From Nitrospinota bacterium (GTDB lineage Bacteria > Nitrospinota > Nitrospinia > JACRGO01), in NCBI GenBank assembly GCA_016212295.1, contig JACRGO010000070.1, forward strand, positions 1 to 12,979: a DNA stretch of 12,979 nt. Reading direction: 5' to 3'. Numbering within the stretch: the first letter of the stretch is position 1; each line of letters opens with the position of its first letter. Positions 2,529-10,602 of this stretch are shown piece by piece. A program made the position numbers and the translations under genes. Under the pieces are notes generated by a model. It saw nothing but the letters and a program-made list of their open reading frames with translations. It had not been told where the DNA came from and did not search any database.

Positions 2529-2704
2529 CCGTCGGCTTCGGGGCGGGCGGGGAATCGCGCCAGCCGCTGGGGCTTGCAGTGGTCGGCGGCCTCGTCTTTT
2601 CACAGCTTATGACGCTTTATATCACCCCGGTTGTTTATTATTATATGGACAAGGTGCAAGGGATGTTCGGCAGGGCCTTTGGACGCAGGCAAAAAGCCAA
2701 GTGA
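2495..2704 (+). pseudogene. C-terminal remnant of the same RND permease (TM12)
   Basis: In the +2 frame relative to the upstream permease frame, the sequence reads TVAALMGSMPIAVGFGAGG, ESRQPLGLAVVGGL, LYITPVVYYYMDK, ending with a basic tail (RRQKAK). This is the typical TM11-TM12 loop, TM12 and C-terminus of RND permeases. It begins exactly where the upstream frame loses homology (2493-2498). It is therefore the far end of the same gene, brought in by a deletion of about 270 codons that also shifted frame. It has no credible start of its own, since GTG 2498 lacks a ribosome binding site. Confidence 0.85.
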
Positions 2705-2740
2705 CTGAAGTGTGAAGTGAGCTAAAGTGACTAAAGTTGA
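2701..2740. repeat. Degenerate short tandem repeat (GTGACT/AAAGT type), inverted copy at 12571-12610
   Basis: Directly after the permease stop, TGAAGTG occurs twice in tandem (2706-2719). Then comes GTGAGCTAAAGTGACTAAAG (2718-2737) and TTG. The reverse complement of 12571-12610 is built of the same words in the same order (AGTGACT...GTGAGCTAAA...GTGACTAAAGTTG) with small length changes. This is a dispersed intergenic repeat. Confidence 0.7.
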
Positions 2741-2750
2741 AAAATAAAAA

Positions 2751-2778
2751 TTGGCGACACCTTAGATAGGGGTATAAT
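2751..2778 (+). promoter_or_regulatory. Predicted sigma70 promoter upstream of the zinc-ribbon gene
   Basis: TTGGCG (2751-2756), a 16-bp spacer, and a perfect TATAAT (2773-2778). It would start a transcript near 2785, leaving a leader of about 190-290 nt before the zinc-ribbon protein, depending on the true start codon. Its position just after the RND pseudogene suggests the accessory patch is transcribed independently. Confidence 0.5.
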
Positions 2779-2880
2779 ACTTTAACTATTCCTTCCAAGC
2801 CATTGGTGCAGTATTTCGTTAATAGGCGCGCAGGCGCGTGTTTGTAAATATTAGGAAGCGCAATATATTATTACGTTCAG

Positions 2881-2927
2881 AAATTTGCGTTAGGCGAGCA
2901 AATTTTAGACGCTTGCCACTTGCGTCT
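2881..2927. other. Twin hairpins in the leader of the zinc-ribbon gene
   Basis: Two perfect inverted repeats with the same geometry stand side by side: AAATTTGC-N9-GCAAATTT (2881-2905) and AGACGC-N9-GCGTCT (2907-2927). They fall between the 2773 TATAAT and the coding region. They could be a structured 5' UTR, paired operator sites or a small RNA. No U-tract follows the second stem, so a terminator is not supported, and I do not recognise a known riboswitch. Confidence 0.45.
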
Positions 2928-2971
2928 GTTGCGGCATGATCTGATCTCCGTTTGCTGAATTCGTAAAATTT

Positions 2972-3355
2972 ATGGTTACTCACGAACAACATGCCATCTC
3001 GGTCCGTGCGGGAGAGGGCGCGACTCGGCCCGGGATCCTCTGTGTGGTCCGTTACGATAAAAATGAGCGGATGCGGCGCGCATTGAAAACGCTGGGCTTC
3101 TTTTGGGCGTTGGCCGTGGCGTCGGTCCCGGTCGTGATCGCTCATTTCGTGCTGGTGCCGGGATTTTTAATCGCGGGCCCGTTTTTGGCGTTCCGCAAAT
3201 TCAAAGCAGAGACGGCTTTGGAAAAAGCGCTGGGCGCGTGCCCGGCATGCGATAAGGAAATATCGTTCGCGCTGGAGCCGGCGGATGTGCTGCCTAAATG
3301 GACCTATTGCCCGCGGTGCAATGCGTCTTTACAGTTAGCGTTTGGCAGAAAATAA
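2972..3355 (+). CDS. Small membrane-anchored zinc-ribbon protein, unknown function
   Basis: This 127-residue frame has a hydrophobic segment (about residues 43-74, GFFWALAVASVPVVIAHFVL then PGFLIAGPFLAF) that could be one long helix or a helical hairpin. A basic/charged turn (RKFKAETALEKAL) follows, then two CxxC pairs (C90/C93 and C113/C116) spaced like a zinc ribbon. The likely architecture is a membrane anchor with a cytoplasmic metal-binding tail. The start is uncertain. ATG 2972 is the longest choice, but residues 1-24 look non-native; GTG 3044 or ATG 3071 (MRRALKTLGFF) would begin at the conserved-looking part. None has a good Shine-Dalgarno sequence. It stands alone, behind the promoter at 2751 and ahead of a separate promoter at 3425. 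I do not know its function. Confidence 0.6.
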   Translation: MVTHEQHAISVRAGEGATRPGILCVVRYDKNERMRRALKTLGFFWALAVASVPVVIAHFVLVPGFLIAGPFLAFRKFKAETALEKALGACPACDKEISFALEPADVLPKWTYCPRCNASLQLAFGRK

Positions 3356-3424
3356 CCGTTACAGCTTTTCACCTTGCTATATTATATGTTTTTGCCATTT
3401 GGAAATGGGTTATGTAAATTTTAT

Positions 3425-3453
3425 TTTACAAATAAGCCTGCTTTAATTATAAT
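3425..3453 (+). promoter_or_regulatory. Near-consensus sigma70 promoter for the Rossmann/TIR-like gene
   Basis: TTTACA (3425-3430), an ideal 17-bp spacer, and a perfect TATAAT (3448-3453). The expected transcription start is near 3460. It lies in an AT-rich 115-bp gap after the zinc-ribbon gene and directly upstream of the gene ending at 4327. It is one of the two best promoters in the window, which argues that the downstream gene is expressed on its own. Confidence 0.6.
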
Positions 3454-3577
3454 CGCTGTGTCGGTTAATAACATTGCTGCAACTATGGAGCCCAGAGAAA
3501 TTGAACATCACTGAAGCTAGCCTGCGCGCTTATATTGAGGCATTCAAGACCCATCTCGGCTTCGTAATATTGTGCCC

Positions 3578-4327
3578 ATGCTTGCGATTGGCGGCTCCGG
3601 AACAGGCATTCATCGGGTCACTCTTTCTGGAAGATTCCCTTTTCGACTTACGGCGACGGAAGCCAGCGTTTCATTCGGTGATGTAGCTTTTGAGGCCGGG
3701 CAATGGAGAAGACTGGTTCACTATGCCGAGGTATTCGGCAATCGTTCTATAGAAAATTGGAGTTTAGAGAAGGCCACGTCGCGTGCAAAGGACGAAGTCC
3801 TCGCCGCGATGGTTATGGCAAGGCAAGCCAAAGAGAAGTACGTGGCCATTGCCGACTACATTAAGAATTTCAAGGCAAAAACTGTTCTTGTTCTTGGCGA
3901 CTACGATAGCTCTGGTCATTCTCGTCTGCGGTGCATCAAACATGCACTCATGAAACTTGGTTATGAACCGCTGCTGATCAAGGACATTCCAGACCATCCG
4001 CATCACGATCTTCCTCAAAAGGTAGTCGCTATCGCTGCGATTTCGCGTTTTATCATCGTTGACGACTCCTCAAAGTCTGGACATTTGCTTGAGGTTCAGC
4101 TTTGCAAACAGAATAGTTGGATTACTATTTTGCTCCGCGCTGCTGGGCAAGGCGGCTCATGGATGACAGCTGGCGCGTCGCACACAAGCAATGTAATTAT
4201 CGAGATTGATTACGATCCAGACACGCCGGAAAAAACAATCGCTGATGCTTCCACATGGGCAGAAAACAAGCTCAAAGAGCTGCAGGTTAAGTTCGATAAC
4301 ACATATCCTTGGCGCATGAGCAGCTAG
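3578..4327 (+). CDS. Protein with Rossmann/TIR-like nucleotide-binding domain, unknown function
   Basis: Numbered from GTG 3572, the 251-residue frame has an N-terminal part of unclear fold (1-60). A charged helical stretch follows (64-100, SLEKATSRAKDEVLAAMVMA). Residues 103-190 form an alternating beta/alpha domain: strand TVLVLGDYD, helix RLRCIKHALMKLGYEP, strand LLIKDIPD, helix LPQKVVAIAAIS, strand RFIIVDD, then SSKSGHLLEVQLC and strand ITILLR. A DD...SGHxxE arrangement (D164, D165, E174) at the end of the third strand resembles the catalytic region of TIR NADases and of nucleoside 2-deoxyribosyltransferases, both of which use a Glu on a flavodoxin-like fold. The family assignment is inference. 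ATG 3578 is used here; GTG 3572 is equally possible, and neither has a Shine-Dalgarno sequence. The frame upstream is closed by stops although the promoter sits at 3425, so the 5' end may be frameshifted or the leader long. Confidence 0.65.
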   Translation: MLAIGGSGTGIHRVTLSGRFPFRLTATEASVSFGDVAFEAGQWRRLVHYAEVFGNRSIENWSLEKATSRAKDEVLAAMVMARQAKEKYVAIADYIKNFKAKTVLVLGDYDSSGHSRLRCIKHALMKLGYEPLLIKDIPDHPHHDLPQKVVAIAAISRFIIVDDSSKSGHLLEVQLCKQNSWITILLRAAGQGGSWMTAGASHTSNVIIEIDYDPDTPEKTIADASTWAENKLKELQVKFDNTYPWRMSS

Positions 4328-4438
4328 TGCTACGTTCAAGTGGACACCCGGTAAGCTGGGCACTTCGATTCGGGCGTGGCAGCGCTGGCGTCACTTGACT
4401 TCTTTATATTTTGAAAAAATAAGGCATGAAATAAAATT

Positions 4439-4744
4439 ATGTTCACGATAAAATGGATAAAAGAGAGGGTTAGAAAAGATGAATATTACTTCTCACGACA
4501 TGGTGATAGAGAAAGGCAAAATGATCTTCTATCAATGTCAGAAGTAGAAGAAGCATTAACCAATGGAATGATTTTAGAGCAATACGAAGATAAAGGAAGA
4601 GGTGAAAGTTGTTTGGTCGTCGGTTTTACAAATTTTGGTAAACCTGTTCATATTGTTTGTGGAGAAATGGAGGGAGAGTTGGCTATAATTACAGTTTATA
4701 TTCCGTCTCCTCCAAAGTTTAAAAATCCATACGAAAGGGGTTGA
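4439..4744 (+). CDS. DUF4258-domain protein, probable toxin of a toxin-antitoxin pair
   Basis: 101 residues. The pattern fits DUF4258 proteins: FSRHGDRERQ near residue 18, an acidic helix MSEVEEALTNGMILEQY, then a beta-rich half with LVVGFTNFGKPVHIVCG, ending ITVYIPSPPKF. These are small RelE/MqsR-fold-like proteins often encoded just upstream of YgiT-type zinc-finger proteins. That is the case here: only six bases separate its stop from the next ATG. By analogy it may be an mRNA interferase, but no catalytic residue has been demonstrated. The gene is strikingly AT-rich with an A-ending codon preference, unlike the flanking RND and cstA genes, which suggests transfer. The start ATG follows an A-rich stretch with only a weak AAGG-like site. 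Confidence 0.75.
   Translation: MFTIKWIKERVRKDEYYFSRHGDRERQNDLLSMSEVEEALTNGMILEQYEDKGRGESCLVVGFTNFGKPVHIVCGEMEGELAIITVYIPSPPKFKNPYERG
4735..4740 (+). promoter_or_regulatory. Ribosome binding site for the YgiT-type antitoxin
   Basis: AAGGGG, inside the last codons of the DUF4258 gene, lies 10 bases before ATG 4751. It allows separate and probably stronger translation of the second gene, as is usual for the antitoxin of toxin-first pairs. Confidence 0.45.
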
Positions 4745-4750
4745 ATTATT

Positions 4751-5005
4751 ATGAAAATTTGTCATTTTTGTGGAAATAAAAATTTTAAAAATATCGAAGT
4801 ACAATACACATATAAGCAAAACGATCAATTTCTTATTGTTGATGATGTTCCATGTGAACAATGTGAGTATTGCGGAGAACAGTATTTTAAAGGAAAGGTA
4901 TTAAAACAAATTGAAAAGGAATTTAATTCTATTCATTTACATGGGAAAAAAGTGAAAAAAGAAATAATAGTTCCAGTTGAACAATTTCATGAAATTCAAT
5001 CATAG
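4751..5005 (+). CDS. YgiT-type zinc-finger protein, probable antitoxin
   Basis: 84 residues. CHFCG at residues 4-8 (C4, C7) and CEQCEYCGEQYF at 35-46 (C38/C41, plus an extra C35) form the paired CxxC zinc-binding site typical of the N-terminal domain of MqsA/YgiT antitoxins. The rest is a lysine-rich helix (VLKQIEKEFNSI) and a tail VKKEIIVPVEQFHEIQ. MqsA also carries a C-terminal HTH domain; this protein is too short for one. It is therefore a 'zinc-finger only' YgiT-type protein that probably binds its partner and may or may not bind DNA. It is translated from AAGGGG six bases after the DUF4258 stop and shares that gene's AT-rich composition, so the two form a bicistronic unit. Confidence 0.78.
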   Translation: MKICHFCGNKNFKNIEVQYTYKQNDQFLIVDDVPCEQCEYCGEQYFKGKVLKQIEKEFNSIHLHGKKVKKEIIVPVEQFHEIQS

Positions 5006-5246
5006 CGAGGCTTAGCCGCAACCAAGGGGAAAACAAAGCCCCAAATGACAAATAGCAAATTACAGATAAATTCCAAATTACAATTTTTGAGTGCCCAAAA
5101 CAATTCAATTTTTTTTATTTATTTCTTTGTAATTTTTTTCGTTACACGCCTATCTCACTGCCATAAAGTTACAGGAAAGTTTTTTAATTTTGGTTGCGGC
5201 GGAGCCGCGCCATGCCCTTTATAATCAAAAGCAAACATACAAAAAA
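5006..5246. repeat. Intergenic spacer with heptamer repeats and an 11-bp inverted repeat
   Basis: The gap before cstA carries four degenerate heptamers in register (CAAATGA, CAAATAG, CAAATTA, CAGATAA; 5042-5069). It also carries a perfect 11-bp inverted repeat, GCCGCAACCAA (5015-5025) with TTGGTTGCGGC (5190-5200). The right arm belongs to a REP-like unit, TTGGTTGCGGCGGAGCCGC (5190-5208). The DNA between the arms is AT-rich with long T-runs. I see no convincing -35/-10 pair or Shine-Dalgarno sequence for cstA. Confidence 0.6.
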
Positions 5247-7289
5247 ATGAAAAAACTCCCTTCAATCCTATTCTGGACAGCGTTCTCATTGCTTGGGGCG
5301 GGATCGGTTGCCGTTATTGCCTTGAACCAGTATGAAAAAATCAACGCGCTTTGGTTCATTACCGCAACGGTGTCTTTCTTTGCCGTAAGCTACCGCTTCC
5401 ACTCCAAGTGGCTGGCCGCTAAAGTCCTTGCCCTTGACGACGCCCGCGCCACCCCTGCCTATATTTACAACGACGGAAAGGACTTTGTCCCGACAAACAG
5501 GTGGATAGTGTTTGGACACCACTTCGCCGCCATTGCCGGACCCGGCCCGCTGGTAGGCCCCGTGCTGGCGGCGCAATTCGGGTATCTGCCCGGCGCGCTT
5601 TGGATTTTGGTCGGGGCCGTGCTGGGCGGCGCCGTGCATGACTCAGTGGTGTTGTTTTGCTCCATGCGGCGCGGGGGCAAGTCCCTTGGCCGTATGGTAA
5701 AGGATGAAGTCGGCCCCGCTGCCGGATACATCGCCATTGTCAGCATTCTCTGCATCATGGTGATCCTGATCGCGGTTTTGAGTCTTGTTGTTGTCAAGGC
5801 GCTTGCGGAAAGTCCGTGGGGGCTTTTTACTATAGCCATGACAATCCCCATAGCGCTCTTCATGGGATGCTGGCTCCGTTTTTTCAGGCCGCATAAGGTT
5901 GTAGAGGTTTCCGCGATGGGCGTCGGCCTTTTGCTGCTGGCCGTGTGGGGAGGACAATATGTCGCCGGTTCTCAATTCTGGGGCGGGGTCTTCACCAGGA
6001 GCGCGCCATTTCTTGCCTGGGCAGTGATATTTTACGGCCTTGCCGCTTCGGTGCTGCCTGTCTGGCTGCTGCTTGCGCCGCGTGATTACCTGAGCTCGTT
6101 CATGAAGATCGGCACCGTGGCTGCGCTCATGCTGGCCATAGTTTGGGTCGCGCCTGCCGTGAGCATGCCGAAATTGACCCCGTTCATATACGGGAACGGT
6201 TTCGTCGTTGCTGGAAAACTCTTTCCTTTCGTCTTCATCATCATAGCTTGCGGGGCCATATCCGGGTTCCACGGGCTCATAAGCAGCGGGACAACGCCAA
6301 AGCTTATAATGCGCGAATCCGCGGTGCGTAACGTGGCTTACGCGGCTATGATAACAGAGATGGCCGTGGGAATCATGGCGCTCTTGGCAGCGTGCGCCCT
6401 GGAGCCGGGCCAGTACTTTTGCATCAACATGAAAGGGACGCCTGACGCGGTCGTGGAGAAGGTTTCCGCCGCAGGTTTCCAGGTGACAGAGGCCGATATG
6501 CGGCAGTTGGCGGCTGACATAGGCGAGAAGACGATGTTCGGACGCACTGGAGGGGCGCCGACGTTCGCTGTCGGGATGGCAAGAATGTTCTCGCACGCGA
6601 TAGGAAGCCAGGCGATGATGGCCCTCTGGTACCATTTCGCCATAATGTTCGAGGCGCTTTTCATTCTTACCACCATAGACGCAGGCACAAGGGTAGGCAG
6701 GTTCCTCCTTCAGGACCTGCTTGGCCATGTGTGGAAGCCGCTGGGCGACACTTCTTTATATGTATCCAATGTTTTTTCCAGCGTCGTTTTCGTGTCCGCG
6801 TGGGGATGGTTCCTCTACCAGGGGGTGATAGATCCGTTAGGCGGCATAAACACCTTGTGGCCGATTTTCGGGATAGCGAACCAGCTCCTGGCGGTCATGG
6901 TCCTTTCCCTCGGCACTACGGTGCTGATCAAGATGGGCCGCGCGCGCTACGCATGGGTGACACTGGCCCCGATGATATTCCTGTTGATAGTTACTATGTC
7001 AGCAGGGGTCGAGAAAATCTTTTATGAGGACGCGGCGGGTTTTATTCCAGCCATAAAGGGACTTCAGGCGAAGCTGGCAACGGCCGCGCCAGCGGCGAGG
7101 AAAGACCTGGAGACGCTTATCTTCAATAACCAGGTAGACGTGGCTGTTACCGCGTTCTTCATGGTCCTGGTCCTGTTGATCGTGGCTGCGAACGCGCGCC
7201 TGTGGTGGGGGCTGCTGAGCGGGAAGGAACAACCAGTTCTAAGCGAGCATCAGAGGGTTGAAATGCCTTCAATTGCCGCGTCTTATTAA
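5247..7289 (+). CDS. cstA: Carbon starvation protein CstA family transporter
   Basis: 680 residues from ATG 5247 (MKKLPSILFWTAFSLLG). An upstream TTG (5190) adds 19 residues that are translated repeat and is rejected. CstA/BtsT proteins are inner-membrane proton-coupled importers of pyruvate and/or peptides, used during carbon limitation. Seen here: YIYNDGKDFVPTNRWIVFGH leading into HHFAAIAGPGPLVGPVLAA (residues 91-109), the family signature; AVHDSVVLFCSMRRGGKSLG; GAISGFHGLISSGTTPKL; FEALFILTTIDAGTRVGRF; and about 15-17 hydrophobic segments. The length is close to E. coli CstA (701) and BtsT. A soluble insert (about 388-450) lies between late transmembrane helices. The frame is intact. It is monocistronic in this window, and its 3' end meets the convergent fused-synthase gene with a 12-bp gap and no visible terminator, so antisense overlap of transcripts is likely. 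Substrate is not predictable from sequence. Confidence 0.93.
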   Translation: MKKLPSILFWTAFSLLGAGSVAVIALNQYEKINALWFITATVSFFAVSYRFHSKWLAAKVLALDDARATPAYIYNDGKDFVPTNRWIVFGHHFAAIAGPGPLVGPVLAAQFGYLPGALWILVGAVLGGAVHDSVVLFCSMRRGGKSLGRMVKDEVGPAAGYIAIVSILCIMVILIAVLSLVVVKALAESPWGLFTIAMTIPIALFMGCWLRFFRPHKVVEVSAMGVGLLLLAVWGGQYVAGSQFWGGVFTRSAPFLAWAVIFYGLAASVLPVWLLLAPRDYLSSFMKIGTVAALMLAIVWVAPAVSMPKLTPFIYGNGFVVAGKLFPFVFIIIACGAISGFHGLISSGTTPKLIMRESAVRNVAYAAMITEMAVGIMALLAACALEPGQYFCINMKGTPDAVVEKVSAAGFQVTEADMRQLAADIGEKTMFGRTGGAPTFAVGMARMFSHAIGSQAMMALWYHFAIMFEALFILTTIDAGTRVGRFLLQDLLGHVWKPLGDTSLYVSNVFSSVVFVSAWGWFLYQGVIDPLGGINTLWPIFGIANQLLAVMVLSLGTTVLIKMGRARYAWVTLAPMIFLLIVTMSAGVEKIFYEDAAGFIPAIKGLQAKLATAAPAARKDLETLIFNNQVDVAVTAFFMVLVLLIVAANARLWWGLLSGKEQPVLSEHQRVEMPSIAASY

Positions 7290-7301: not shown

Positions 7302-10049
7302 TCACTTCAAGGCTTCCACAGCCAGGCCGTATTCCTTTTCAGCCTTTCCGGTTTCTCCCATGTCGCTGTAAACCTTGGACAGATAATAGTGGGCTTCCGG
7401 CAATTGAGGGGCAAAGGCGGCCGCCTTTTCCAGAAAACGCAGGGCCTCCCGCTGCCTTCCCTGCTGGAGATAGAGAAGTCCAAGCTCGAAATTTGAAAAG
7501 CCAAGATAAGGGTCGGACGGATTCACGGCCTCGGACCGTTGGTATTGTTTTATTTCCTCCTGGAAATCCCCCTCAGCGTGTGCTATTCTCCCTTTCAGCA
7601 GCAGGGAGCGGCCCTCAAAATATTTGGCTGTTTTCTCTAATGCCTTTGAGCGGTCCTCAGCCGGAAGCGACTCAGGAAACCCTTTAAAGGAGGACCGGAT
7701 ATGGCTAAATTCCCTGAAGTTCTTGACCGCGTCCGATTGCCTGCTCCATATATGCTTCGGCGCTGAATACTCTATGGCCGGATGTTCGTCCGTGTTGATC
7801 ACAGCGTCCTTCAGGAATTCTTTTAATCCATCCTGGTCCGTGATGAAAAAACTCAGGAGGCTGAAAGGGTCGGCCCACTCTATAAGGTCCTTTCTCACCT
7901 GATTGTTTTTCATCTTTTCCCGCAATGCATCCGGAGCAAGCTGCAAATCCTCCCTGCCGCCGAGGAGCATCAAGGTGGGCTTGGAGCTGTTGGTGTCCCC
8001 ATACCATAACGTGATTTTGGGAAACACGGAGGCAAAGGTTGCGACGATGGTTTTCAGGTCATCGGGATGCAATTGATAGAGCGGCAGCCATTGCGCCATG
8101 AGTCCGCCCGGCTTCAGCTTCGCAAGGCAGTTTTCATAATGCTCCCTTGAGTACAAATTGCCTGAGCCGCTGGTGTCCGGCTGGAAAAGGTCGGAGATGA
8201 TCACGTCGTATTTACGCTGGACCGTTCTCACGAAATTCCTTCCGTCCCAAATGGCCAGATGAAACTTGGGATTTGATATGATTCCGTGGTTGGATTCCTT
8301 GAAGAACGCCGCTGTTTCCACCAGTTCAGGCACTATTTCCACGCAGTCTATCCATTCCACTTCTTCGTGTTGTCCAACCGCGCCTGCCGTGATCCCGGCG
8401 CCCAGGCTTATGGCCAAGACCTCCTTGGGGTCTGGATGGAAAAGGAGCGGGAGGTGTCCGAAGCGCACCGCCACGTCTCCTGTTGTGGCCATGTGATAGT
8501 TGTTTACTGTAAGCGTGAGCGCCTTGCCGCCTTTTTCCTGAACAACCTTTACCGTGCCCGCAGATCCTTCTTTTTTATAAACAGCCTCACCGCCCATGTC
8601 AGGGCCGGAGCCTATGTCTTTCTCAGCTAAAATGCCGGAGAACAGAAATACCAGGGACGCGAGTCCCATTGCATAGCCTGGCAGTCCAAATCCCTCCCTT
8701 GGGCCGCTCTTTAGGATGGCCAAGGCCCCGGCGGCCATATTGACGAAGGCTATGATGATTATTCCCCATTGCAATCCCAGGACAGGGATCAGAAAGAACC
8801 CGGCGGCAATGGAACCGAATATTCCTCCAAATACATTGGCGCTGTACATGCGCCCTACGCCGCCACCGGCTTCATCGACAGATGATATATACGCCTTGCA
8901 GATCAAGGGGAAGGCCATTCCCATGAGAAATGTAGGGACGATAAGAACCAGGAAGTTCAGCGCGAACAGCCGCAAAATATGGCTACCCCAGGCCGTTGCC
9001 CCGGTCCATTGGCCCCCTTCCCCAACCTCGCCCGGCATCCATGCGAAGAGGAGGATGGAAAAAAGCGCGTAGCATCCAATGGCAAGCTGGAGCCAGCCAA
9101 AATAGCGGAGCGGGGATTCTCGTTTTTCCAAAAGTTTTTGATAGCAAAGGGAACCGATGGCGATCCCCAGCAGGAAAACGGTGAGGATATTGCTGAAGAG
9201 GTAAACTGTGGATTTGAAAATCAGGGAAAAGGCCCTTGTCCAAAGGACCTCATAAGCTAGTCCGCAAAAACCGGCAAGGCCGGAAAAAAGGAGGATGAGT
9301 TCTCTGCTAAGGGGCTGTTTTGTGGCTTCCAGCGAAATAACGGGCTCTTTTTCCTTGGCCTTTTGTTTCTTTTTTTTGCCTTGCTTGGCGCTGTCATGGA
9401 CCGCTGGAGCGCCTGCTTCCTCTGAAAGATATATGCCTGCAAAGTCCTTTTGGCCGGCAAAGGCAATTGCCGCCACTGACAGATTAACAGCTATGGCAAG
9501 ATACTGTGTATGCGTGGTCCCGAGATAAGGAATCAGGAAATAGCCGGTTACGAAACAGCCAAGGCAGGCCCCAAAGGTGTTGATCCCGTAAAGGCGGGAA
9601 ATTTCAGTTCCAGCGAGGTCGAGTCCATGTATCAGGCAGCGGCTTAATACTGGAAGGGTGCCGCCCATCAAGAGAGAGGGGACCAACAGGATTACAAAGG
9701 AGGACAGGAAACGCAGCAGGGTGGAACCTTCCGGCGTAAGGGAAAATTCATGATGGAGATAGACGTAGAGGGAATCGAGAAAGGGGAAGAACAGGACTAT
9801 GGCCAGGGCCGAAAGGGCCACGCCGCCTTCCATGAACGCGAAAAGCCTCAGGCCCTCATCCCTTTTCGTGGAAACCTTTCCAAAGAGAAAACCTCCAGCC
9901 GATAGCCCCAGCATGAAGGCGGCCAGTACCGTGCTTACGGCGTATATGGTGTTTCCAAAGGACAGGGAAAAGAGCTTGACCCAGACGATCTCGTAAACTA
10001 GTCCGCTGAATCCGGATGCGAGGAAGAGGAGAAGAATTCTGATTTTCAT
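7302..10049 (-). CDS. Fused membrane (MFS-like) spermidine synthase-family protein with C-terminal TPRs
   Basis: 915 residues from ATG 10049 (MKIRILLLFLASGFSGLVYE). The open frame continues upstream to 10364, but that extension runs through repeats and is not protein-like. Domains in order: a first membrane block (about 1-205) opening with G-x-x-GLVYEIVWVKLF; a Lys-rich linker (about 215-245); a second membrane block (about 253-470) repeating the signature as GLAYEVLWTRAF; a spermidine-synthase-like Rossmann domain with AISLGAGITAG and a VEIVPE loop (about 540-565) and ISDLFQPD near 616 (counterpart of the SpeE catalytic Asp region); then about three TPR units (810-915, ending LPEAHYYLSKVYSDMGETGK). 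This matches the 'fused MFS/spermidine synthase' family, whose substrate is not established. True polyamine synthesis is doubtful because the substrate-binding loops look divergent. There is no Shine-Dalgarno sequence before ATG. Confidence 0.88.
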   Translation of the reverse strand: MKIRILLLFLASGFSGLVYEIVWVKLFSLSFGNTIYAVSTVLAAFMLGLSAGGFLFGKVSTKRDEGLRLFAFMEGGVALSALAIVLFFPFLDSLYVYLHHEFSLTPEGSTLLRFLSSFVILLVPSLLMGGTLPVLSRCLIHGLDLAGTEISRLYGINTFGACLGCFVTGYFLIPYLGTTHTQYLAIAVNLSVAAIAFAGQKDFAGIYLSEEAGAPAVHDSAKQGKKKKQKAKEKEPVISLEATKQPLSRELILLFSGLAGFCGLAYEVLWTRAFSLIFKSTVYLFSNILTVFLLGIAIGSLCYQKLLEKRESPLRYFGWLQLAIGCYALFSILLFAWMPGEVGEGGQWTGATAWGSHILRLFALNFLVLIVPTFLMGMAFPLICKAYISSVDEAGGGVGRMYSANVFGGIFGSIAAGFFLIPVLGLQWGIIIIAFVNMAAGALAILKSGPREGFGLPGYAMGLASLVFLFSGILAEKDIGSGPDMGGEAVYKKEGSAGTVKVVQEKGGKALTLTVNNYHMATTGDVAVRFGHLPLLFHPDPKEVLAISLGAGITAGAVGQHEEVEWIDCVEIVPELVETAAFFKESNHGIISNPKFHLAIWDGRNFVRTVQRKYDVIISDLFQPDTSGSGNLYSREHYENCLAKLKPGGLMAQWLPLYQLHPDDLKTIVATFASVFPKITLWYGDTNSSKPTLMLLGGREDLQLAPDALREKMKNNQVRKDLIEWADPFSLLSFFITDQDGLKEFLKDAVINTDEHPAIEYSAPKHIWSRQSDAVKNFREFSHIRSSFKGFPESLPAEDRSKALEKTAKYFEGRSLLLKGRIAHAEGDFQEEIKQYQRSEAVNPSDPYLGFSNFELGLLYLQQGRQREALRFLEKAAAFAPQLPEAHYYLSKVYSDMGETGKAEKEYGLAVEALK

Positions 10050-10270
10050 AAAAAACGTGACATTGTAGTTGTTATAAAAAAAATCAGCCGTGGATGAACG
10101 CGAATTTTTACTTATGGATTTTAAAAAGTCCGATAGTATCAGCGTAAATCCGTGGCTGATTCTAAAAATCTCTTCGCTTGAGTCTCCGCTTCGCCGAGGA
10201 ACGCTCCGCTTCAGTTGCGGACGCCCAGTGAGTAAGAGGCGAGCCGTCAGTTGCAAGCGGTAAGACACCA
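10050..10270. repeat. Upstream region of the fused-synthase gene with ATCAGC/GGCTGAT palindromes
   Basis: Non-coding. AATCAGCC (10082-10089) pairs perfectly with GGCTGATT (10154-10161). A competing closer partner, ATCAGC (10138-10143), can pair with GCTGAT (10155-10160). The stretch 10165-10220 has repeated CTCCGCTTC-like words. TTGCAAGC (10253-10260) can pair with GCTTGCAA (10305-10312). I find no clear -35/-10 pair for the minus-strand gene; TATAAC or TACAAT on the minus strand near 10065-10076 are weak candidates. Confidence 0.5.
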
Positions 10271-10602
10271 AGAAGCTGTCTTGAAAAAACATTACGGTCC
10301 GCCGGCTTGCAAACACAGCCACGAAAATCCTTAACACACCCCGGCCTTCGGCCACCCCTCTCAAGAGGGGAATTTATAGATGCGGCGTCCTCTCAACAGT
10401 GGATTAAGGCACAAGGCATCCTGGCAAGTCGCGGGAAATCATAAAGGCATCGGGTAAACCGCTGAAAATTATACCGCCGGCGATTAAATTTTTCTTCTGA
10501 AAAATTCCCCTCTTGAGAGGGGTGGCCGAAGGCCGGGGTGTGTCAGCGGGCTTCATATTCCAACCGCATACTTGGATAAACATTTTTTTCAAGACAGCTT
10601 CT
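10271..10602. repeat. Nested 332-bp inverted-repeat element with perfect 42-bp inner arms
   Basis: Inner arms 10334-10375 and 10502-10543 are exact reverse complements over 42 bp. Outer arms 10271-10292 and 10581-10602 (AGAAGCTGTCTTGAAAAAA type) match at all but about two positions. Each inner arm is itself two REP-like hairpins: GGCC-TTC-GGCC and CCCCTC-TCAA-GAGGGG. The 126-bp centre has no recognisable gene. Minus- and plus-strand frames across it are translations of the repeat and are not annotated. Confidence 0.85.
10497..10520 (-). terminator. Possible rho-independent terminator for the small gene at 10606
   Basis: On the minus strand, inside the right inner repeat arm, CCCCTC-TCAA-GAGGGG forms a GC-rich 6-bp stem with a tetraloop and is followed by AATTTTTC. 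It lies about 85 bases downstream of the stop at 10606, in the correct orientation. It may simply be part of the repeat and only act incidentally as a terminator. Confidence 0.35.

Follow-up and report, generated by a model that had tools for sequence, protein, structure and literature searches.

The window, by which we mean the whole stretch of 12,979 nucleotides analysed, contains a gene for a protein of 251 amino acids, followed by a pair of genes of toxin–antitoxin (TA) type (Table 1). The gene had been read from the sequence alone as covering positions 3425–4327, but, read in the frame assigned to the protein, this interval is interrupted by three stops, at codons 30, 32, and 38, and does not form a single open frame. 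The protein is therefore encoded by 3572–4327 (+), starting from a GTG codon, and the residue numbers of the earlier reading (D164, D165, and E174) are consistent with this start. The upstream part, 3425–3571, holds the three in-frame stops and the near-consensus promoter that had been proposed there; the latter is a sigma-70-type site and the top-ranking one within 2600–5300, although as a consensus match only it is putative. No Shine–Dalgarno sequence is evident upstream of the GTG at 3572. In comparison with a relative that is 66% identical, identities at the first, second, and third codon positions were 72%, 79%, and 34%, a pattern that places the ORF beyond chance and bears the mark of purifying selection on the protein.

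Table 1. Features in and around the gene, with window coordinates
Feature	Position	Strand	Basis
Promoter-like site, TTTACA-17-TATAAT	3425..3453	+	11/12 consensus positions
5' remnant of the gene, TTG start, LNITEASLRAYIEAF..., out of frame with the main ORF	3501..3557	+	tblastn with L002
Putative deletion junction, TTC common to both sides	3543..3545	+	blastn coordinates of the flanking matches to L002
Surviving ORF, rest of the N-terminal region and C-terminal domain	3572..4327	+	Relatives L002 (66%) and L003 (53%)
Predicted TIR/NDT-superfamily-like Rossmannoid domain, residues 88–251	3833..4324	+	AF2, Foldseek, VIA, 12-sequence alignment
DUF4258 protein, predicted TA toxin	4439..4744	+	PF14076, E 9.8e-18
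YgiT-type zinc finger protein, predicted antitoxin	4751..5005	+	TIGR03831, E 2.5e-11

Intact relatives were found in a single scan of 84,980 species genomes, one in a Gammaproteobacteria MAG (L002, 66% identical) and one in a Desulfobacteraceae MAG (L003, 53% identical). The L002 protein has 341 amino acids from a TTG start, that of L003 has at least 349 and runs off the contig end, and both carry approximately 66 residues more than the window copy. The start of the full-length relatives (LNVTEESLRSYIEAF) is recognizable at window positions 3501–3557 in a frame different from that of the main ORF: residues 1–19 of L002 share 13 of 19 identities with it in tblastn, and blastn finds a 44-nt match at 73% identity. 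Residues 81–341 of L002 match window 3542–4324. The two nucleotide matches to L002 join at 3543–3545 with offsets 199 nt apart, the missing stretch corresponding to about 165–361 of L002, or about 199 nt; the offset difference implies that some 66 codons are gone, with a frameshift, and the triplet TTC is common to both sides of the junction. Judged against its relatives, the window gene is thus truncated at its 5' end, and the N-terminal region that had been proposed as a sensor is largely missing from it.

The loss of about 199 nt may have come about by decay or by assembly collapse, and a second interrupted gene stands nearby. A gene for an MdtB-like RND pump (417–2704) matches MdtB residues 13–704 over 417–2528 and residues 973–1035 over 2498–2704 in another frame, so that about 268 residues (MdtB 705–972) are lacking and the frame shifts near 2500–2528. 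Either local decay or errors in the draft assembly could account for two large gaps of this kind in the space of about 1.1 kb. A fragment of an RND adaptor precedes the pump at 89–310, and its initial residues (MDGIRTKKTQKGLNCY) do not look like an adaptor; this may mark a third abnormal junction, close to where the contig begins. Barring an assembly fault, the window copy has probably decayed or yields a shortened protein only. It may be dead, a horizontally acquired accessory gene that is now decaying and functionless here, and we judge the chances of this reading, which is compatible with any ancestry of the domain, to be evenly balanced. It is favoured by the loss with its frameshift, the GTG that lacks a Shine–Dalgarno sequence, the interruption of the adjoining efflux-pump gene, and a patchy distribution, the gene being present in 1 of the 77 genomes searched in the phylum. 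On the other hand, no stop interrupts the 251 codons that remain, these codons are under strong constraint, and the two gaps could likewise come from a fault in the draft assembly.

The TA-like pair that had been noticed beside the gene is real, both partners matching named families (Table 1), and apart from it no defence system was found in the window. TA pairs lie near the copies of the window, L003, and L013, but they are of a different kind each time (DUF4258/YgiT, NTase/HepT, and ParE/Phd), which indicates proximity only. The window holds no lmuB or lmuC genes that would make its copy a Lamassu effector, and no lmuB lies near the L002 and L003 genes. Elsewhere in the window, 7302–10364 (−) encodes a fusion of 1,020 amino acids with an MFS-type membrane part, a spermidine synthase-like part, and TPR repeats. 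The counterparts of the MdtB-like pump elsewhere in its own genome and in a same-genus genome are only about 30% identical, and the contig (G000:C17) may therefore hold horizontally acquired genes or be misbinned.

The C-terminal 160 amino acids of the ORF form a separate domain that is predicted to be a five-stranded Rossmannoid. The alternation of strands and helices described in the sequence-only reading, with DDSSKSGHLLE at the third strand, is seen in both the ORF and the structural model. An AF2 model of the domain built from four sequences had a pLDDT of 75 and a pTM of 0.75, and its order of elements, b1-a1-b2-a2-b3-a3(E174)-b4-b5-a, agrees with that of TIR and NDT proteins, and the helix that follows strand 3 has E174 in its first turn; full-length L002, modelled from three sequences, reached a pLDDT of 41. 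The top PDB matches in Foldseek were DNPH1 (E 2e-4), TIR-STING (5e-4), BcmB (1e-3), and NDT (2e-3), with MilB also among them, and flavodoxins and lysine decarboxylase wing domains were likewise matched at 2e-3. VIA gave Z scores of 12.8 for MilB, 12.8 for DNPH1, 12.7 for the SfSTING TIR, 12.0 for the IL-1RAcP TIR, and 11.7 for SARM1, but the response regulators NtrX and PleD reached 11.5–11.6, so Z is not decisive by itself and the support for the fold is moderate. The best-named matches among viral models were nucleoside 2-deoxyribosyltransferases. The leading matches thus come from the NDT/DNPH1/MilB and TIR families, as had been anticipated for a structure prediction: the model supports, with moderate strength, the five-stranded α/β Rossmannoid fold of NDT, DNPH1, and MilB, and its predicted order and the position of E174 are also those of a TIR fold with a Glu in helix C.

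Direct profile matches, which the earlier reading had looked to for a TIR or NDT assignment, did not appear. No Pfam, NCBIfam, or PADLOC family matched the C-terminal domain; specifically, the TIR profiles PF01582, PF13676, PF08937, and PF10137 and the NDT profile PF05014 gave no match at E up to 1. Matches of the window ORF to Pfam 3HCDH_RFF (E 0.016) and NCBIfam InaA (E 0.0033) fell far under the cut-off and were judged to be chance. We then compared profiles with hhalign, using families retrieved for this analysis. The 12-sequence profile of the domain scored 28.9 with TIR_2, its top single score, and 23.7 with NDT, in comparison with 17.8 for the Response_reg control and 20.6 for the B12-binding control, and none of 60 column shuffles reached the TIR_2 or NDT score. 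The accepted relatives TIR_2 and NDT score 28–38 against each other, on the same scale. The controls are not silent, as B12 against TIR_2 gives 23.4 and, for the domain profile, the B12 score was likewise reached by none of the shuffles, and we regard the profile support as moderate. Searches of the PDB sequences with 6- and 12-sequence profiles returned chance matches only. Kinship with two further families was considered and found no support: the DUF4062 comparison, made with four DUF4062 sequences, scored 14.2, a value reached by 9 of 60 shuffles, and ThsB, represented by two sequences only, gave no profile score.

The alignment of 12 diverse relatives narrows down the candidate active site. 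L106, L108, G109, F160, and E174 are invariant, E174 being the sole invariant acidic residue. D164, D165, and E174 had been proposed together as catalytic acids; while E174 fits this role, position 164 is D, E, or V and position 165 is D, K, N, R, I, or M among the 12 relatives, and these two are therefore unlikely to be catalytic acids. The acidic partner known from many NDTs is not evident in the domain. In unforced profile comparisons E174 fell in register with the Glu of NDT-like and TIR proteins, in agreement with the alignment to a catalytic Glu that had been predicted for it. The NDT comparison places it on the Glu of DGTCVELGWA, and in phmmer this Glu of an NDT sequence (L019) is aligned to that of SPGTHVEIGWA in MilB; the PDB title of 4ohb names a MilB E103A mutant, and from the numbering E103 would be the Glu of that motif. 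The residue four positions before the Glu (E-4) provides a further distinction. The motif WxxxE is common in TIR NADases, and most of the 24 TIR_2 sequences have W, F, Y, or H at E-4. The window-type members have G instead, giving GxxxE in all 7 window-type sequences, 5 of 5 NDTs, and 0 of 24 TIR_2 members; 4 of the 5 group-B relatives, described below, do not have the G. As the window-type members share GxxxE with the NDTs, TIR is the weaker half of the original guess. The active-site loop, SG-x-x-x-E, is most likely nearer to enzymes of NDT/DNPH1/MilB type than to TIR NADases, judging from the motif.

We extended the family beyond the close relatives with tblastn and profile searches using the C-terminal 160 amino acids, and found the domain to be modular. 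On a plasmid of Haloferax gibbonsii (L005:6615-8567), it is located C-terminal to an HsdM-type N6-methylase, and this fusion adjoins a separate complete type I R-M operon. In L013:1144-1986 it stands behind a retropepsin-like aspartyl protease (gag-asp_proteas, E 3e-9), an unusual pairing. On two Priestia megaterium plasmids, the domain gene lies directly behind lmuC–lmuB with a 17-nt overlap with lmuB, within four-gene Lamassu-like operons (L004:4693-8621 and L006:4534-8492) that encode a 247-aa protein, an lmuC-like protein, lmuB, and the domain protein; no PADLOC model matched the first gene. A second set, group B, has the domain at the C terminus of pentapeptide-repeat proteins, in L014, Vibrio, Chlorohelix, Azospirillum, and a phage contig (L018:737-1876). 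Window-type and group-B domains are homologous, with an hhalign probability of 97.9%, an E of 3e-13, and the Glu in register. On a Vibrio pectenicida plasmid (L015:3326-6477), thsB, thsA-macro, and one hypothetical gene are followed by the pentapeptide/group-B gene, the Thoeris pair thus lying two genes upstream, and the surroundings of the Azospirillum copy include CHAT, SLATT, and TIR genes. Near the pentapeptide/domain gene of the phage contig, a second protein (L018:3276-4127) has an NDT/TIR-looking stretch and no Pfam match.

The survey of homologues for defence neighbours, made locus by locus, placed relatives within or next to genes of Lamassu, Thoeris, and type I R-M systems. The distribution is patchy: the domain was found in 1 of 77 genomes of the window phylum, in 1 of 369 in a sample of Gammaproteobacteria, and in 3 of 395 in the phylum of L003, and no copy of the gene was seen in the same-genus genome G001. 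No relatives were found in phage records, and window-type queries found none among viral contigs, where one pentapeptide-type relative is present.

Taken together, these observations favour, at somewhat better than even chances, the domain being a new subfamily of TIR/NDT-superfamily N-glycosidases that has been reused in defence. In the mechanism we propose, the N-terminal region or a partner protein would sense the invader, and E174, as a single Glu, would break the N-glycosidic bond of a nucleotide, nucleoside, or NAD, by which the nucleotide or NAD pool would be depleted or converted; the domain would then serve as a module on varied front ends and partners and provide defence systems with their toxic or signal-making effector. 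TIR, DrHyd, and SLOG domains constitute a related class from which conflict systems draw NADases or signal makers (PMC9503650), TIR domains occur among the Lamassu effectors (PMC10586767), and DUF4062 (Swarozyc) was recently reported (PMC13174449, preprint) to be a TIR-like NADase of defence that has auxiliary domains and a conserved Glu, so the type of mechanism has support in the literature. We see the domain as a probable effector or signal maker that defence systems can reuse, a role suggested by the relatives and not by the window locus. The original idea is thereby partly supported: as for a defence component, relatives lie near defence genes, but the window itself has just the TA pair.

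The evidence on the active site also bears on whether the domain is a true TIR-type NADase effector, in which phage sensing would activate NAD+ hydrolysis and abortive infection or the making of a cyclic ADP-ribose signal. The top single profile score is that of TIR_2 (28.9), the fold searches rank TIR-STING and the SARM1 TIR among their best matches, some relatives have Thoeris or Lamassu genes close by, and DUF4062 has lately been shown to be a TIR-like defence NADase (PMC13174449). We nevertheless consider this rather unlikely: no TIR Pfam model matched, the first Foldseek matches are DNPH1 and CMP N-glycosidases, and E-4 is the NDT-like G in 7 of 7 window-type sequences in place of the W or F of most TIR_2 members. 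A noncatalytic nucleotide sensor, which would have kept the fold and bind a nucleotide signal to relay it to the fused methylase, protease-like, or pentapeptide partner, would account for the regulator-like C-terminal position in varied architectures, and a sensor role is possible for SLOG and other related domains of this class (PMC9503650); as the catalytic position is where the sole invariant acidic residue lies, and pure sensors need not retain it, this appears improbable. The receiver domains at Z 11.5 and the flavodoxins and lysine decarboxylase wing domains at a Foldseek E of 2e-3 would be in line with some other flavodoxin-like or receiver-like Rossmannoid without N-glycosidase ancestry. 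Such an origin seems more improbable still, as response regulators (17.8) and B12-binding domains (20.6) score below TIR_2 and NDT in the profile comparison and an invariant Glu has no role in these folds.

Returning to the N-glycosidase subfamily, a bolder version of it can be offered only tentatively and is on the unlikely side: a new and widely reused effector family, distinct from TIR and DUF4062, occurring across Lamassu-type, methylase- and retropepsin-fused, and pentapeptide defence proteins of bacteria and archaea, with a nucleotide rather than NAD as the substrate. Enzymes of the TIR/NDT class have a central place in bacterial immunity, and new branches of them, DUF4062 for one, have proved to be active defence enzymes. 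The present branch is absent from Pfam, NCBIfam, and PADLOC; it is joined to several unrelated defence contexts and has one candidate catalytic residue. This gives biochemistry a concrete target, and with the domain on record defence finders could put a label on proteins that are now hypothetical; the window copy matters chiefly as the lead to the family.

Among known systems, the domain resembles TIR NADases (TIR_2 PF13676, ThsB_TIR PF08937, SARM1, and TIR-STING) in its five-stranded order, the Glu in the third helix, the highest profile score, and the association with defence genes, but differs from them in matching no TIR profile and in lacking the E-4 aromatic residue of most TIR_2 members. 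The DUF4062 NADases (PMC13174449) would share the proposed strategy, a diverged TIR/NDT domain with variable auxiliary domains in defence islands, although the profile relation to them (14.2, from four DUF4062 sequences) is not above chance. The tie to Lamassu and ABC-3C systems is the Priestia domain gene, located directly behind lmuC and lmuB; it follows lmuB, whereas the usual Lamassu effector is lmuA. The best fold matches are DNPH1/Rcl and MilB/BcmB of the NDT superfamily (PF05014 and relatives, "DrHyd"), and like these the domain has one Glu at the catalytic position and a G-x-x-x-E loop leading into the helix that follows strand 3. It stands apart from that superfamily in having no significant sequence match to PF05014, in its C-terminal location, and in an extra C-terminal helix ending in YxWR, and, unlike NDTs that act as free metabolic enzymes, it is fused to other domains.
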